Shown here piece after piece: positions 43,761-50,785 of a DNA stretch of 64,000 nt; positions within the stretch are counted from its first letter, which is position 1; each line of letters begins with the position of its first letter. This DNA is from a virus. The DNA lies in IMG/VR virus record IMGVR_UViG_3300028558_000791, positions 248,001-312,000 of that record. One strand, given 5' to 3'. The notes below the pieces were generated by a model, which worked only from the letters and a program-made list of their open reading frames with translations, searched no databases and was not told where the DNA came from. The position numbers and the translations under genes are program-made.

Positions 43761-46589
43761 ATGGCAGATATACCAGGCGCAACAAATGCCTTACCAGGAG
43801 TATTCACCGACGTAATTACCCAGTCAAGTGGTGTTGCGCTCCCTGGAGGTTCCCGTGTCGTAGCTATGATCGGTCAAGGCTCGACTAATGAAGTTCTAGT
43901 GTCTCAAGCACTAGGCGGTGGTCAAGACGGACTCAATGATACTTACACTTCGAACTCTGGTTCGGACGGCAGACATTTTGCTCTTTCTCACTTCCCTGTA
44001 ATCCAAAACCGTACAACCATTTTCAAGAATGGTGTTCCACTAGTAGGTTTGGAACTAGGACCAATCACCCCATCAACGACCTTCAGTTTCAGCTATGACT
44101 ACCAACTAGACCCAACTACTGGTCACGTTCTATTCCAAGCAGCTCACTTGTTAGATCAAGGCGGCTCTTTCTATACTCCGCTGAACACTAATGTTGGTTT
44201 GGGTAGCCTCAATGGTTTGACATTAGAAGATAATAATGCTCCACCTGAAACTTGGACCATTCGTTGCGTATCTGTTCAAAGAACTGCAATGAACCAACCA
44301 ATCGGCGGAACTGCCAAGTTCTTAGCTTTCGGTTCTGTGTCTGGCGCTAAGTTGGATGCCAATGGTAATCCAATTGTTTGGATTGCTAATGGACAGGTTG
44401 TTTCTAACGGCATTCTAAGCTTCAGCATTACTGAGACTCAAGTTTCTAGCATGGTCGTATCTCCATTCCGTGAAGGCGATGCTTTTACTGTAATGGTTGC
44501 CAGTGGAGTTCTAGTTCGTGGAGACTCTGTCACCGCAACTGATATCCCACTTGCTAATATCAATAACCCAACCCTAACTCAGGGAATCAGCGACATCTTC
44601 AACTTCAGCGGTCCAGCTAGCTTGACTAACAACCTAAGCTTGGGTGGTCAGTTGCTCTACGCCAACGGCGCATCTTCTATGATCGCTGTTCAAGCAGCCC
44701 CTCCACTACCAAGAAGAACATCTTATGTTATGGCCCCAACAGTTAATTCGTTGTCCACTAACCCAGATGAATTTGTCTTCCCCTTCCCACTAGGTGTTGT
44801 ACCAGATTTCAATGCTGAAGTACATGTGTTCGTAACGAACCCAACTACTCAAGTTGAGACTCAGTTGCTACCAAACAAGTATCCTTACTACACGTTAGGT
44901 ACTTCTGGTAATCCAACTAAGAGCCAATTCATCTTCAGCAATTTGCAGCCACCTTCTGGCTACTCCTTCGACTATAGCATTATTAACAGCTTTGAAACTG
45001 TTGTAAGCGGATTCGACGGATATGTTGGTAGACTACCAGCCTTTGGTACTCAAGGTGTCTTCCACGCTGAGAGCGCAAACTTCAATTCCGGATACACTGG
45101 TAAGTTGCTTAAGATCATTGACTCTACCAATGCTGCAAACATTGGAACTTTCAATATCACTGCGGTTTCTAACGGACAATTGAGCATCCAGACTATCACC
45201 TCCGGTGAACCTGGTGATCCAGTTCCATTCCCAAGCCCAAGTGGTTTCCCAGATTTCACTTCACAAGGTTCAGGCGTAGCTTTCGAGCTAGTTCAAATTT
45301 CTACTGGACTACCAGTCTCTGGTAAGTCTGGTACTGATGGAACTTTGGTTGCCTTCTTGAACACTGCTACTGGCGATTTGAACAGCACTGCAGTTAACTT
45401 CAATATCCCAGATTTGGTAGCAGACTACAGACTACAAATCAATGGCTCTACTGTTGGTAATGATGGTCTCTACGATATTATCGCATATAACTCATTCACC
45501 AATACTCTAACCTTGCAGATGACTTTCGTAAGCGAGAGCAATGTTAGATATGAAGTTCTTGATCCAGGTGCAGTCAGCACTTACTTGGTTATGAACCATA
45601 ACGTTGTTCCAAATGGAAATCAACTCAGAGTCACAATCGTAGACACTAGAGATGCAACCTTCTTCGATGCAGGTTGGCTCAATGCTCTATCAGTTCTTGA
45701 AACTGTTGAATGTGATATTTTGGTACCACTACCAAACCAGACTATTTCAGTTATCTTCCAAAACTGCCTAAGCCATTGTATCACAATGAGCAATATCGCG
45801 AATAGAAAAGAACGCGTGTTGTTCATCGGAGCAATCCAAGGCTTACTTCCAGCTAACTTGACTGGTGTATCTCCAGCGGCCGTTGAAAACATCGGTATCC
45901 TTGAAGGTATCCAAGGTGATAACATCACTGACGTCCTAGCTGGTAACGTAGAAGACCTAGCCAACTACTCCGTATCTGATGCTTACGGTTCAACGTTCAG
46001 ATGTGTATACTTCTACCCTGACCAGATTGTTGTTCAGGCAGGCGCAGAGAACATACTAGTTGATGGTTTCTATATCGCAGCAGCCGCAGCCGGTTATGCA
46101 AACGCAGACTTGGCTCTACAGAATCCATTTACCAACAAGGTATTTAGCGGATTCACTATCCTAAGAAACAAGACCTTCTCTCCTCTAGTGCTTGAGCAAT
46201 TGGCAGCAGCCGGTGTAACTACCCTACAGCCAGTAGCAGGTGGCGGTAGAGTTGTATGGGGAATCACTACCAGCCAGTCTGGATTCCCAGAAGAGCAAGA
46301 AATTTCTATCGTCTTCATTAGAGATAGAGTTGCTAAGGTTCTACGTTCTGGATTCTCCGGATTCATCGGAACTCCACAACTACCAACCACTCAGACTTCA
46401 CTAAGTACAGAAGCGGTCATCCTACTCAACTCCTTGATTTCTCAGGGATTGATTACGGCCTTCAAGGGATTGTCGGTACAACAGGACTCAGTAGATCCAC
46501 GTCAATGGAATATTGCAGTAAGTGTTCAACCAGTTTACCCAATCAACTGGATCTATATTAAGGTTACAGTAGCTAATTTGGGAGCTTGA
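43761..46589 (+). CDS. tail sheath protein
   Basis: A 942-residue contractile sheath subunit with an AAGGA ribosome binding site. The N-terminus (PGATNALPGVFTDVITQSSG) matches sheath proteins, where it forms the arm that links subunits. The C-terminal 200 residues (KTFSPLVLEQLAAAGVTTLQ, then GRVVWGITTS, QEISIVFIRDRVAKVLRSGF and NWIYIKVTV) are the conserved contractile core. The middle 600 residues are inserted beta domains, making it longer than the 659-residue T4 gp18. It is followed by the tube gene, as usual. C-ending codons suggest high expression. Confidence 0.9.
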   Translation: MADIPGATNALPGVFTDVITQSSGVALPGGSRVVAMIGQGSTNEVLVSQALGGGQDGLNDTYTSNSGSDGRHFALSHFPVIQNRTTIFKNGVPLVGLELGPITPSTTFSFSYDYQLDPTTGHVLFQAAHLLDQGGSFYTPLNTNVGLGSLNGLTLEDNNAPPETWTIRCVSVQRTAMNQPIGGTAKFLAFGSVSGAKLDANGNPIVWIANGQVVSNGILSFSITETQVSSMVVSPFREGDAFTVMVASGVLVRGDSVTATDIPLANINNPTLTQGISDIFNFSGPASLTNNLSLGGQLLYANGASSMIAVQAAPPLPRRTSYVMAPTVNSLSTNPDEFVFPFPLGVVPDFNAEVHVFVTNPTTQVETQLLPNKYPYYTLGTSGNPTKSQFIFSNLQPPSGYSFDYSIINSFETVVSGFDGYVGRLPAFGTQGVFHAESANFNSGYTGKLLKIIDSTNAANIGTFNITAVSNGQLSIQTITSGEPGDPVPFPSPSGFPDFTSQGSGVAFELVQISTGLPVSGKSGTDGTLVAFLNTATGDLNSTAVNFNIPDLVADYRLQINGSTVGNDGLYDIIAYNSFTNTLTLQMTFVSESNVRYEVLDPGAVSTYLVMNHNVVPNGNQLRVTIVDTRDATFFDAGWLNALSVLETVECDILVPLPNQTISVIFQNCLSHCITMSNIANRKERVLFIGAIQGLLPANLTGVSPAAVENIGILEGIQGDNITDVLAGNVEDLANYSVSDAYGSTFRCVYFYPDQIVVQAGAENILVDGFYIAAAAAGYANADLALQNPFTNKVFSGFTILRNKTFSPLVLEQLAAAGVTTLQPVAGGGRVVWGITTSQSGFPEEQEISIVFIRDRVAKVLRSGFSGFIGTPQLPTTQTSLSTEAVILLNSLISQGLITAFKGLSVQQDSVDPRQWNIAVSVQPVYPINWIYIKVTVANLGA

Positions 46590-46617: not shown

Positions 46618-47301
46618 ATGGTAACAGGCTATCCACAAACAGGTTCACTACTTAATTTAGGTGACGGATTCGGTACTAACACTACCAACACCGCAATTTC
46701 AACTAACATCTTATTGGCTGTAAGAACCCCAAGTGGGTACCAGCCAATTGGAGCTGTTCAATCAATGGCAATCTCTGAGAAGAGATCAATCAAGATGATT
46801 GACGAAGTTGGAACAGATGGTCATATCGACTCTGTACCTAACCAATCAACTAATGTAACTGGCACTTGTCAGAGAGTTAGATTCCAAAAGCTAAGAGTCG
46901 CTGAAGCATTCGATAGAGGCTTCTTACACGTAGCTGCACAGGCTTATCCTTTTGATATTGTTATCTTTGATAAGCAGAAGTTCCAAGTTCAAGCACAGGT
47001 TACTACGATCATTAAGAACGTATGGATTTCTGGTATTGACTATACTTACCAAGTAAGTGATTGGGTTATCACTGACTCAATGACTTGGGAAGCGGAACAC
47101 ATTTTCAGCACAGTTAACGGTGGTCCAGCCGCTGTTGGTGGTCAGAACAACTTGGTCAAGCCATTCGCTGGCGCATCCAATCCAAACTGGATTGAATCTC
47201 AGACTGACATGGGTGGCAGCGGTAGAAGAGGTTCTTTGGATGCTGCTGGTCTTATCGACCTTGGCTCCAGCCAGTACCCAGGTTCTTCCGGAATCTACTA
47301 A
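46618..47301 (+). CDS. tail tube protein
   Basis: A 227-residue protein 28 bases after the sheath, with AGGGAG upstream. It forms the inner tube through which DNA passes. Features fitting the family: GAVQSMAISEKRSIKMIDEV (the beta-hairpin and loop seen in T4 gp19-like tubes), VRFQKLRVAEAFDRGF, and a beta-strand-rich core. The C-terminal Gly/Ser-rich tail (GGSGRRGSLDAAG) is probably flexible. The strong terminator after this gene fits the high copy number of the product. Confidence 0.85.
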   Translation: MVTGYPQTGSLLNLGDGFGTNTTNTAISTNILLAVRTPSGYQPIGAVQSMAISEKRSIKMIDEVGTDGHIDSVPNQSTNVTGTCQRVRFQKLRVAEAFDRGFLHVAAQAYPFDIVIFDKQKFQVQAQVTTIIKNVWISGIDYTYQVSDWVITDSMTWEAEHIFSTVNGGPAAVGGQNNLVKPFAGASNPNWIESQTDMGGSGRRGSLDAAGLIDLGSSQYPGSSGIY

Positions 47302-47364: not shown

Positions 47365-47390
47365 TTATATATTTGGTTAGGAGTTGTGCA

Positions 47391-48068
47391 ATGCCAAAAT
47401 TTGATAGTCCAATTGGAAGTAAACAGTTTCAGGGTCCACCTATGAAAGAATTCAATGTCCCTGATGATAGTGGTTATGAGCAACCACCACAGAGACAAAT
47501 GCGTACACCGCATGAACCTATTCCAGCTTTTGATGAAAGAGCTATGAGAGAATTTCAGGGTCAAATGCAACCGCCTCAACAAGGTGGTGTAAGAGAAATG
47601 TCAGATATCGAGAAAGAGATTCACGCAGCCAAGAAGGCTAAGCGTGAGGGTAAAGAAAGGCTATCTGACGGCGCTAGACGACGTATAGAAATGCTGATCG
47701 GTATGACCAGACTCTCCAAGGAGATCGATGTTGGCGGACAAATGTATAAGTTGCAGACGCTAACCTCTCAAGAGTTGCGTGATGCTGTTGTTGCTACAGC
47801 CGAGTTTGATGGTTCTGTCCAGTTTATCTTCGAGAATAGAAAGCAGCTTCTTGCTAGGGCTATTGTTGTTGTAGCCGGTGTTCCTATTGATCAATTCCTT
47901 AATTCTAATGAGCTAGATGCTAAGCTAGAGTTTATCGAGTTACTAGACCATGCCTTATTACATAGATTATACGGCGAATACATCTCTCTAACACAAGAGG
48001 CTCAGAATAAGTATAGTCCTAAGACTGAAGAGCAAGCTAAGGAGATCGTTGAAGATCTAAAAAAATAA
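47391..48068 (+). CDS. tail assembly chaperone, short form (gpG-like)
   Basis: A 225-residue protein starting at ATG 47391 with TAGGAG 7 bases upstream; an in-frame TTG at 47373 is less likely. The N-terminal 65 residues are Pro/Gln-rich and probably disordered; the rest is helical (GARRRIEMLIGMTRLSKEID, LTSQELRDAVVATAEFDG, IFENRKQLLARAIVV). It lies between tube and tape measure, the standard place for tail assembly chaperones. The last codons are CTA AAA AAA TAA, a -1 slippery site. Shifting would fuse it to the following frame and give a 344-residue long form. Confidence 0.75.
   Translation: MPKFDSPIGSKQFQGPPMKEFNVPDDSGYEQPPQRQMRTPHEPIPAFDERAMREFQGQMQPPQQGGVREMSDIEKEIHAAKKAKREGKERLSDGARRRIEMLIGMTRLSKEIDVGGQMYKLQTLTSQELRDAVVATAEFDGSVQFIFENRKQLLARAIVVVAGVPIDQFLNSNELDAKLEFIELLDHALLHRLYGEYISLTQEAQNKYSPKTEEQAKEIVEDLKK
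48059..48065 (+). other. programmed -1 frameshift slippery site A AAA AAA
   Basis: Seven adenines are in zero-frame phase A AAA AAA and abut the TAA stop at 48066-48068. A slip of one base reads ATA ATA AAT GAA CCG, then continues without stop into the next frame. The -1 frame is open from 48053. Tail chaperone pairs of lambda and many other phages use this arrangement. The downstream frame has no good ribosome binding site, which supports the shift. Confidence 0.85.
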
Positions 48069-48424
48069 TAAATGAACCGGAACACCGCTTTCATTGGCAT
48101 TTAATGAAGATGAAAAAGACTATTGATGTCGGTGATCCTGAAATTACGGAAATGGACCCGGTTCGTAAAATGTGGCTTTTTGAACAATGGCTAGGAGATC
48201 ACAGAGATGATGCTGAACTAGCTAAAAATCACGCATATCTATTAGGTTCCTTTTGGAATGCTGAGGCTGTTCAACAAATGCTTAATGATAATGTTCATGA
48301 ATCTACTGATGAAGATATGGAAGAATCCATGCGAATGGTCACTGACGGTTTGCCTGGAGTATTTGATATGCCCGAAGAGAAGCCTCTGCCTAAAAGAAAA
48401 CGTAGAGCAATTTTAAAGGAATGA
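48065..48424 (+). CDS. tail assembly chaperone, -1 frame extension (gpT-like)
   Basis: About 119 residues read in the -1 frame after the slip, joined to the 225-residue chaperone. The junction peptide INEPEHRFHWHLMKMKK is well formed, rich in His, Phe and Trp, so it looks like real coding sequence. An ATG at 48104 could start a separate 106-residue protein, but the bases before it lack a Shine-Dalgarno match. The acidic C-terminal part (DPEITEMDPVRKMWLFEQWL, then basic KRKRRAILKE) resembles T domains that bind the tape measure. The stop lies three bases before the tape measure start. Confidence 0.75.
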   Translation: MINEPEHRFHWHLMKMKKTIDVGDPEITEMDPVRKMWLFEQWLGDHRDDAELAKNHAYLLGSFWNAEAVQQMLNDNVHESTDEDMEESMRMVTDGLPGVFDMPEEKPLPKRKRRAILKE

Positions 48425-48427
48425 TAA

Positions 48428-50785
48428 ATGGCCGCCGGTGACCCAACAGATCCAACAGCAACAGACCCAACAGTAGTAGCCCCTAACACCGATCAGTTAG
48501 AGGCTTGGAGGTCATATAACGAATATACTGCACAGTCTGCATCTAATGTAGATAGTCTCAATAATTTGACTGCTATTTCGAATAGAGCTTTTGATACTTT
48601 GAATACGGGTCTCGAAAAATTGAATATGTCATTCAATTCTTTGGACAACATGACATCTCAGCAAGCAGCCGGATTTGGCGCTTTGAGTACAACTATTTTA
48701 GGAAGCAAAGAAGCTTTTACACAATTAGCGAATGTAGACACTACTAAATTGTTGACTTTTACTGGCCAAGTAAAACAGATGCAGGAAATTTTTAATCAGA
48801 GTCCAACTTATAAGTTATTGAAGAAGGAACTTGATGATGTTACTTCTTCAGCGGCTAAAATGACGGATAAAATTGCTGCCCAAGGTTTGGTTAAAGCTGC
48901 GACTGAAAAGTTCAATGAACTGACTAAAGTAGTATCTGATTCTGCCATGGCCATGTTGACTAGTGCAGATAACTCACTCAGATTACAAAATGCAATGTAT
49001 CAACTAACTATGCAGGCTGGTGATTCCAAAGATTTGTTTAATGGTTTTGGCGGAGTATTTGGAGGAATGAGTCAGAATTTCTCAAATGTTGGTGATGTTA
49101 TGGCCCAGTTTAATAAAGTACTAGAGCATGGGTCTGCAGCATTAGGCGGTAATCAAGAATTAGCTGCCAAATATATGGCCGAGATTAATAAGATGCCTGG
49201 TGGATTCAAAGCTCTAATCGGCCCTTTAACAATAGCAGGTACAGAAACAGATGTTTTGGCAGCAAGCATTCAATATGCAACTGGCGCTGGACGCAAGCAA
49301 GAAGAAGTATTCTCAGATATGTCTAAAGCAATGGCAGAATATAGTATTTCTGGTGGTGATGCTTTAAGATTCTCATCTAGAATATCAGAAGTCGCTAATA
49401 GCGTAGGCGGTCAGTTCAAAGACGTGCAATCAGCACTTCATGATGTTATTGGTGAATTCAAAATGTATGTTAACAGCGGTGCTGATGCTTCTAAGATGAC
49501 TCAAGGTATGTCCGATTCTATGAGAGACTATGTATCTCAACTAACTTCTGTTGGTGTGCCAGCTCAAAATGCCATTGAAATGTTCAAGAACTATTCTAAC
49601 CAACTTAAGAGTATGACTATCGGACAACAGTCTTTCGTATCTACTATGAGTGGTGGTCCTGGTGGACTAAGAGGTGCCCTACAGTTTCAAGATGATTTAG
49701 CTAAGGGTAACTTTGAAAAAATTCAAAAGCAAGTCGAACAGACGCTCAAAAGAACTACTGGACCTCTTATTACAAGAGAAGAAGGCATGAAGAGTGAACA
49801 AGGCGCTGCACAGTATGTTCGCCAGCTACAAGTATTGCAGCAAGGACCACTTGGTGGTATGGCTAAGACTCAGGGTGAAGCTGATTCTTTGATCAGAGCG
49901 ATGAAAGAGGGTAAAGTTTTCGAACCTGAAAAGGGAGATACTCCAGAAAAGACTTTGCAAGATACTATGATCAAGGGGCAAGAATGGCAGAAGGGTTCTT
50001 ATACTGAACTTACTAAAATCAATACTAACTTACAAGCCATGATGCTTAGGGGCGGCACTGCCAATTTAGCAACTACTCAGGGGATGTTTACTGCTGCTGG
50101 TGGTCGTTCTATTCCAGGAGGAAGTGGTACGGGAGCGGGAATTTCTCCAGGCTCACAAGAAAATCTATCGGCTTCACAAAGAGCTATAAATATCGCCGCT
50201 CCAAACTCGGAAGTATTCAAACAGACCGCAGATGCAGTTAAAAATCTTCCTAAAACTTTTCAAGACGCCTGGAAGAGCTTCAAAGAAGCTATTAGTGGTG
50301 GCAACAAAGAGTCTATTCAGCAAGCTAATGATAAGCTATTAGCAGCCGTTAAAGATGCAAAAGCTACTGGTAATATGACAGATAAACAAAAGGGTTCTCT
50401 AGATGTTTTGCAAAACAACCTATCTGTTACTAAACAAGATAGGGGAGATGCGGCGCCTACTACTGCTGGTCCAACAAATGCTGCAGATAGAGTTACTACC
50501 CCAAAGATGACTTTTGCACCAATAGAAAATTATGCAAGACCAGGACAAAGAATACCAGCCCCACGTCAGCCGGCTACCGCGGCTGCTGGTGCAAATAATA
50601 CGGCACCAGGACAGCAAGGCGGTCTTCAAGGTCAAGGTGCTCCTGGACAACAAGCAGTACCAGTTATGTTAGCGCCTGGTTCTGCAATTACCGTCAACTT
50701 AACCGGTGTTTGTCCACATTGTGGAAAAGACATCAATCACACGCAAGCAAACCGTGGTGTTTCACAGGGAACATCCGCTCCTTAA
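48428..50785 (+). CDS. tape measure protein
   Basis: A 785-residue protein with AAGGA upstream, directly after the chaperones. The N-terminal 250 residues are long helices (SSAAKMTDKIAAQGLVKAAT), continuing helical to about 500. Hydrophobic patches (TMQAGDSKDLFNGFGGVFGG) suit the pore-forming tip. The C-terminal 250 are Gln/Ala/Pro-rich linkers, closing with a CPHCGKDINHTQ motif, a possible zinc knuckle. At 0.15 nm per residue the full length would set a tail of roughly 118 nm if fully helical. Assigned mainly from position and composition. Confidence 0.75.
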   Translation: MAAGDPTDPTATDPTVVAPNTDQLEAWRSYNEYTAQSASNVDSLNNLTAISNRAFDTLNTGLEKLNMSFNSLDNMTSQQAAGFGALSTTILGSKEAFTQLANVDTTKLLTFTGQVKQMQEIFNQSPTYKLLKKELDDVTSSAAKMTDKIAAQGLVKAATEKFNELTKVVSDSAMAMLTSADNSLRLQNAMYQLTMQAGDSKDLFNGFGGVFGGMSQNFSNVGDVMAQFNKVLEHGSAALGGNQELAAKYMAEINKMPGGFKALIGPLTIAGTETDVLAASIQYATGAGRKQEEVFSDMSKAMAEYSISGGDALRFSSRISEVANSVGGQFKDVQSALHDVIGEFKMYVNSGADASKMTQGMSDSMRDYVSQLTSVGVPAQNAIEMFKNYSNQLKSMTIGQQSFVSTMSGGPGGLRGALQFQDDLAKGNFEKIQKQVEQTLKRTTGPLITREEGMKSEQGAAQYVRQLQVLQQGPLGGMAKTQGEADSLIRAMKEGKVFEPEKGDTPEKTLQDTMIKGQEWQKGSYTELTKINTNLQAMMLRGGTANLATTQGMFTAAGGRSIPGGSGTGAGISPGSQENLSASQRAINIAAPNSEVFKQTADAVKNLPKTFQDAWKSFKEAISGGNKESIQQANDKLLAAVKDAKATGNMTDKQKGSLDVLQNNLSVTKQDRGDAAPTTAGPTNAADRVTTPKMTFAPIENYARPGQRIPAPRQPATAAAGANNTAPGQQGGLQGQGAPGQQAVPVMLAPGSAITVNLTGVCPHCGKDINHTQANRGVSQGTSAP

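Follow-up and report, generated by a model that had tools for sequence, protein, structure and literature searches.

The window examined here is a 64,000-nucleotide stretch of DNA, bases 248001-312000 of a 480,838-base virus record. Within the window, the genes for a tail sheath and a likely tail tube protein are followed by two overlapping open reading frames, ORF1 and ORF2, and by a candidate tape measure gene (Table 1); the same gene order is found in Bacillus phage G. The neighbors of the ORF1/ORF2 pair are assigned by position (tail tube) and by a weak PHROG match (tape measure).

An X_XXY_YYZ heptamer lies within the ORF1/ORF2 overlap. The zero-frame codons at 48057-48068 read CTA AAA AAA TAA, which places the heptamer in phase as A_AAA_AAA with the stop codon next. 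The -1 frame is open from 48053, after a TGA at 48050-48052, is closed by a TGA at 48422-48424, and reads ATA ATA AAT GAA and onward (IINEPEHRFHWHLMKMKK) after the slip. A shift at the heptamer would join the 225 residues of ORF1 to an extension of 119 residues, giving a fusion of 344 aa. Retracing the reading frames confirmed the original prediction of an in-phase A7 run abutting TAA, a -1 frame open from 48053 and a 344-residue fusion, and all of its coordinates are correct.

Table 1. Coordinates of features at the ORF1/ORF2 locus, numbered from the first base of the window.
Feature	Position	Strand	Remarks
Tail sheath	43761-46589		PHROG tail sheath, E=2.8e-15; upstream of ORF1
Likely tail tube gene	46618-47301		inferred from position; between sheath and ORF1
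ORF1 ribosome binding site AGGAG	47379-47383	+
ORF1, zero-frame tail assembly chaperone, 225 aa	47391..48068	+	ATG 47391 to TAA 48068; profile homology to phage G gp181
Internal Shine-Dalgarno-like AAGGAG	48039..48044	+	14 nt 5' of heptamer
Slippery heptamer A_AAA_AAA	48059..48065	+	same in 77/77 homologous sites
-1 frame extension, 119 aa, IINEPEHRFHW...LKE then TGA	48065..48424	+	profile homology to phage G gp182 extension
Zero-frame stop TAA, adjoining heptamer	48066..48068	+
5' arm GAACCGG, proposed stimulatory stem	48074..48080	+	8 nt after heptamer
3' arm CCGGTTC, proposed stimulatory stem	48158..48164	+	77-nt loop in window
Tape measure protein candidate, 785 aa, next gene	48428..50785	+	phrog_167 tape measure, E=3.9e-4, weak

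The assignment of ORF1/ORF2 as a tail assembly chaperone pair is supported by the gene order, by PHROG matches to some ORF2 homologues and by profile alignment with phage G. Phage G gp181 and gp182 are annotated as a joined tail assembly chaperone; in the profile comparison, the first aligns with ORF1 at E=7.9e-10 and the -1 portion of the second aligns with the extension at E=8.6e-7. Two ORF2 homologues also match the tail-assembly-chaperone family phrog_25000. Pfam and PHROG matches to the window's own ORF1 are absent or weak. Protein searches with ORF1 and ORF2, tblastn included, gave no match in an annotated phage collection, no homologue was found in bacterial and archaeal genome contigs, and a PDB sequence search returned no significant match. 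The AlphaFold model of ORF1 is of low confidence (pLDDT 66); with this model, Foldseek found no PDB match and one uncharacterised phage protein in BFVD.

Conservation of the slip site and the adjoining stop codon

IMG/VR was searched with ORF1, ORF2 and alignments of each, and the loci found collapsed to 77 distinct sites, with ORF1 identities of 34-100% to the closest query. Since part of this set was retrieved with patterns that lie inside ORF1 only, the set is independent of the slip site. The A7 heptamer is in phase in 77 of the 77 sites (IMG/VR contigs), even though about 41% of the Lys codons elsewhere in ORF1 are AAG, and its conservation is thus far beyond chance. A broken run was sought among the homologues as a possible refutation of frameshifting, and none carries one. 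In all homologues with a closed -1 frame, the -1 ORF has a length of 111-125 aa, and coding in this frame is conserved from its first codon. Among 237 codon columns, the AAA, AAA and ATA codons of the slip site rank with the most constrained, as do CCG and GTT codons of the stem described below. One point against efficient slippage is that A_AAA_AAA slips less than A_AAA_AAG in E. coli (PMC5009743).

The zero-frame stop adjoins A7 in 71 of the 77 sites (63 TAA, 8 TAG) and falls one codon later in the other six. For the first Ile of the -1 frame, 69 of 75 sequences use ATA, the choice that creates the abutting stop, and none uses ATT, the commonest Ile codon, which suggests that the abutting stop is itself under selection. 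This layout had been described as unusually tight. It is tight relative to SEA-PHAGES sites, where the stop averages 26 nt away (PMC10885494), but it is not unique: the stop also directly follows the heptamer in phage G and in Eggerthella phage LE2-3, and the same has been reported for some dnaX genes (PMC5009743).

Three further observations were made on these sequences. At the second Ile position of the -1 frame (48066-48071 region), all 61 homologues that have Ile use ATA; together the two Ile codons produce A7-TAATA, and about half the family carries a tandem TAATAA stop. Elsewhere in the window, A7 runs appear to be avoided, with three occurrences of AAAAAAAT in the whole window compared with 7.9 expected from shuffles. 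Finally, a second stretch of the -1 ORF at 48215-48244 (GAACTAGCTAAAAATCACGCATATCTATTA) has an unusually fixed codon choice at codons 53-60, which encode AKNHAYLL (GCA in 71, GCT in 65 and CAC in 63 of 75 homologues). A search of the window for repeats of 48221-48244, allowing up to three mismatches, found none, and a promoter at this position was rejected on that basis. The GAACT just before the AKNHAYLL stretch can also pair with the 3' arm of the proposed stem.

Sequence elements flanking the slip site

Two conserved elements that were absent from the original prediction flank the heptamer, a Shine-Dalgarno-like motif upstream and a stem downstream. The upstream motif is found 12-14 nt before A7 in 64 of the 77 sites, most commonly as AAGGAGGT at 12 nt, and the GAG codon within the AAGGAG of the window is conserved across homologues. 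These distances, including the 14 nt of the window, fall within the published range of 9-14 nt for such motifs in -1 frameshifting of the dnaX/IS3 type (PMC5009743).

The stem is formed by GAACCGG and CCGGTTC, which enclose a loop of 74-77 nt. Across 76 sequences, all seven pairs are present in 67 and six in another four, while the distal arm is lost in five; overall, 95.4% of the stem cells are paired, and contiguous pairing reaches 8-11 bp in 53 of 71 sequences. All five-base pairings between -75 and about +285 were scanned, which returned this stem and, with weaker conservation, other possible partners for its 3' arm at 48215-48219 and 48323-48327. The codons of the arms (CCG 5, CCG 32 and GTT 33) are the stem codons noted above among the most constrained columns. 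At residue 34, which follows V33, 73 of 76 sequences have Q, L, R or H, with a codon that nearly always begins with C. The pairing requires a C at this position, and nearly all of the codons used for this varied residue fit.

Two double compensatory changes were observed, one giving GAATCGG/CCGATTC (L210, with G-U intermediates in L197 and L224 of the same clade) and the other giving GAACCTG/CAGGTTC (L233). Such double changes were equalled by 14-20 of 500 shuffles. Covariation beyond invariance is modest, and most of the stem signal is invariance. RNAalifold recovers the stem in a set of 34 sequences and predicts no consensus structure from all 76. When the window alone is folded in segments of 40-55 nt, local hairpins form in place of the long stem. 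One of these, at 48071-48095, was considered as a stimulator and rejected; it folds in the window, but its pairs are not kept across the family. An Rfam search gave only sub-threshold matches to Atu_C9, all outside the site.

Published stimulatory hairpins in bacteria measure 17-140 nt and begin with a G-C pair located 4-10 nt past the motif (PMC4066793). The stem described here has an 8-nt spacer, a G-C first pair, seven pairs and, in the window, a size of 91 nt, compared with a published minimum of a G-C pair and at least three more. Based on this agreement and on the spacing of the upstream motif, we infer that the two elements would stimulate slippage at A7.

Among the five sequences that have lost the distal arm, four (L153, L156, L207 and L231) can instead form a local 7-bp stem, in which the same 5' arm pairs with CUGGUUY across a 13-nt loop. 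The local stem is also available in L049, which keeps six distal pairs. L156, L207, L231 and L049 make up one clade, and L153 lies apart from them beside L135, a sequence that has both the distal and the local pairing. The fifth sequence (L175) has neither, and its 5' arm may pair farther downstream. This apparent switching of partners by the 5' arm is suggestive only, since it was noticed post hoc and part of the local partner consists of conserved Trp-Phe codons. Our tentative proposal, to which we give somewhat less than an even chance, is that the stimulator is the long-range stem of 7-11 bp, closing a 74-77-nt loop within the -1 coding region, and that, in two lineages or more, the 5' arm has stayed fixed and exchanged its distal partner for a local one. 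If true, selection would hold one position of the stem in place as its partner shifted, a type of stimulator new to tail-chaperone frameshifting. The long stem and the partner switching are the only part of the signal that could be new.

It is also conceivable, though unlikely, that frameshifting at this site is real and that GAACCGG/CCGGTTC is not its stimulator, the conservation of the arms reflecting another function of the RNA or DNA or, in part, constraint on the protein. Both arms do fall inside conserved protein motifs (EPEHR and MDPV), local pairings compete with the stem in the window, and the stretch at 48221-48244 is likewise constrained and has no assigned role. Against this, the spacer, first G-C pair and size match the published rules for bacterial hairpins (PMC4066793), and the compensatory changes, together with the local hairpin that replaces the stem where the distal arm is lost, point to pairing.

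Proposed frameshift and its rivals

We consider it very probable that the site is a programmed -1 ribosomal frameshift of the lambda G/GT type, which would make two forms of the tail assembly chaperone. The original prediction of a frameshift in a chaperone pair is supported by the conservation of A7, by the lack of a conserved internal start, by the gene position, and by the PHROG and phage G alignments. As proposed, most ribosomes would terminate at the UAA and release the 225-aa chaperone. In a minority, the rRNA would pair with the internal AAGGAG as the ribosome meets the stem that begins 8 nt past A_AAA_AAA. Two Lys-tRNAs would then slip in tandem from AAA AAA, moving back one base to pair with AAA AAA in the -1 frame; this slip would compete with termination at the UAA. 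Slipped ribosomes would read AUA instead of UAA and continue to the 344-aa fusion. By analogy with lambda gpG/gpGT, whose roles are drawn here from PMC5009743, the short form would coat the tape measure protein and the extension would recruit the tail tube protein. Slippage, its frequency, its stimulation by the motif and stem, and these protein roles are proposed; the elements themselves, their conservation and the -1 coding were observed directly.

Transcriptional slippage is a highly improbable alternative, in which RNA polymerase adds or drops an A on A7 so that part of the mRNA carries the fused frame and ribosomes translate it unshifted. All relatives do carry seven As in a row, and such a run can cause indels in the mRNA (PMC4066793). 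However, four conserved features of the site would be superfluous for slippage of the polymerase: the single codon phase of the run, its count of exactly seven As, the Shine-Dalgarno-like motif at 12-14 nt and the stem 8 nt downstream.

The 106-aa frame that opens at 48104 had been predicted to lack a good ribosome binding site, and there is indeed no Shine-Dalgarno upstream of its ATG. A strong internal start, whose presence would have spoken against frameshifting, was sought among the homologues, and none is conserved. Met48104 is kept in 12 of 76 homologues and replaced in the other 64, mostly by Cys, which makes independent translation of this ORF unlikely. It is therefore barely credible that ORF2 is a separate protein made from ATG48104 by coupling or reinitiation, with A7 incidental; the ATG does open a 106-aa frame in the window, but residues 1-13 of the -1 frame, including the IINEPEHRF that lies ahead of it, are among the best conserved, and an in-frame start with a Shine-Dalgarno-like motif occurs within the first 36 codons in only 5 of 77 homologues. 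For annotation, the 106-aa ORF should be entered as part of a 344-aa protein, of which it belongs to the frameshift extension of 119 aa.

Comparison with known frameshift signals

Frameshifting by -1 in tail chaperones is a classic known case, conserved in tail assembly chaperones and exemplified by lambda gpG/gpGT (Xu, Hendrix and Duda 2004, as cited in PMC5009743); the jumbo-phage family here is undescribed. As in lambda, two overlapping ORFs lie upstream of the tape measure gene, a -1 heptamer lies near the end of ORF1, and a minority product is predicted to carry a C-terminal extension. Unlike in lambda, the heptamer is A_AAA_AAA with an abutting stop, in a contractile-tailed jumbo phage. 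The phage G pair aligns over both halves and also has its stop directly after the heptamer, but its own site is A_AAA_AAC followed by TAG, with an ORF1 of 115 aa and an extension of about 252 aa; the GAACCGG/CCGGTTC stem is absent from the stretch of phage G that was read.

The signal also resembles those of E. coli dnaX and the IS3 family, which combine a Shine-Dalgarno-like motif 9-14 nt upstream, an A-rich heptamer and a downstream hairpin (PMC5009743, PMC4066793). It differs from them in the gene concerned and in its 7-11-bp clamp over a 74-77-nt loop, which gives way to a local hairpin in some lineages. Large branched hairpins (PMC4066793) and long-range partners (PMC5009743) are both known from IS elements. 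In stimulators of the IS3411 type, the partner lies 44-104 nt downstream and the structures are apical-loop/internal-loop pseudoknots (Mazauric et al. 2008, as cited in PMC5009743). The present site likewise has its partner tens of nt downstream, but the best conserved of the pairings found there is a simple stem.

A literature search, with most subscription papers outside its coverage, gave no account of the present signal in jumbo phages. Our findings would add a large undescribed jumbo-phage family to those that set the ratio of tail chaperones by frameshifting. With a signal as strongly conserved as this, the family offers a natural set of sequences in which to establish the elements that a bacterial -1 frameshift signal needs, among them the abutting stop, the Shine-Dalgarno-like motif and a stem with a moving partner.

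A related arrangement was found through the sheath in Eggerthella phage LE2-3, a GC-rich phage whose proteins give no convincing alignment with those of the window. There, A_AAA_AAA is directly followed by TAA (L079:7473-7482) between an annotated tail assembly chaperone and a separately annotated "hypothetical protein", and this site is probably an unannotated frameshift.
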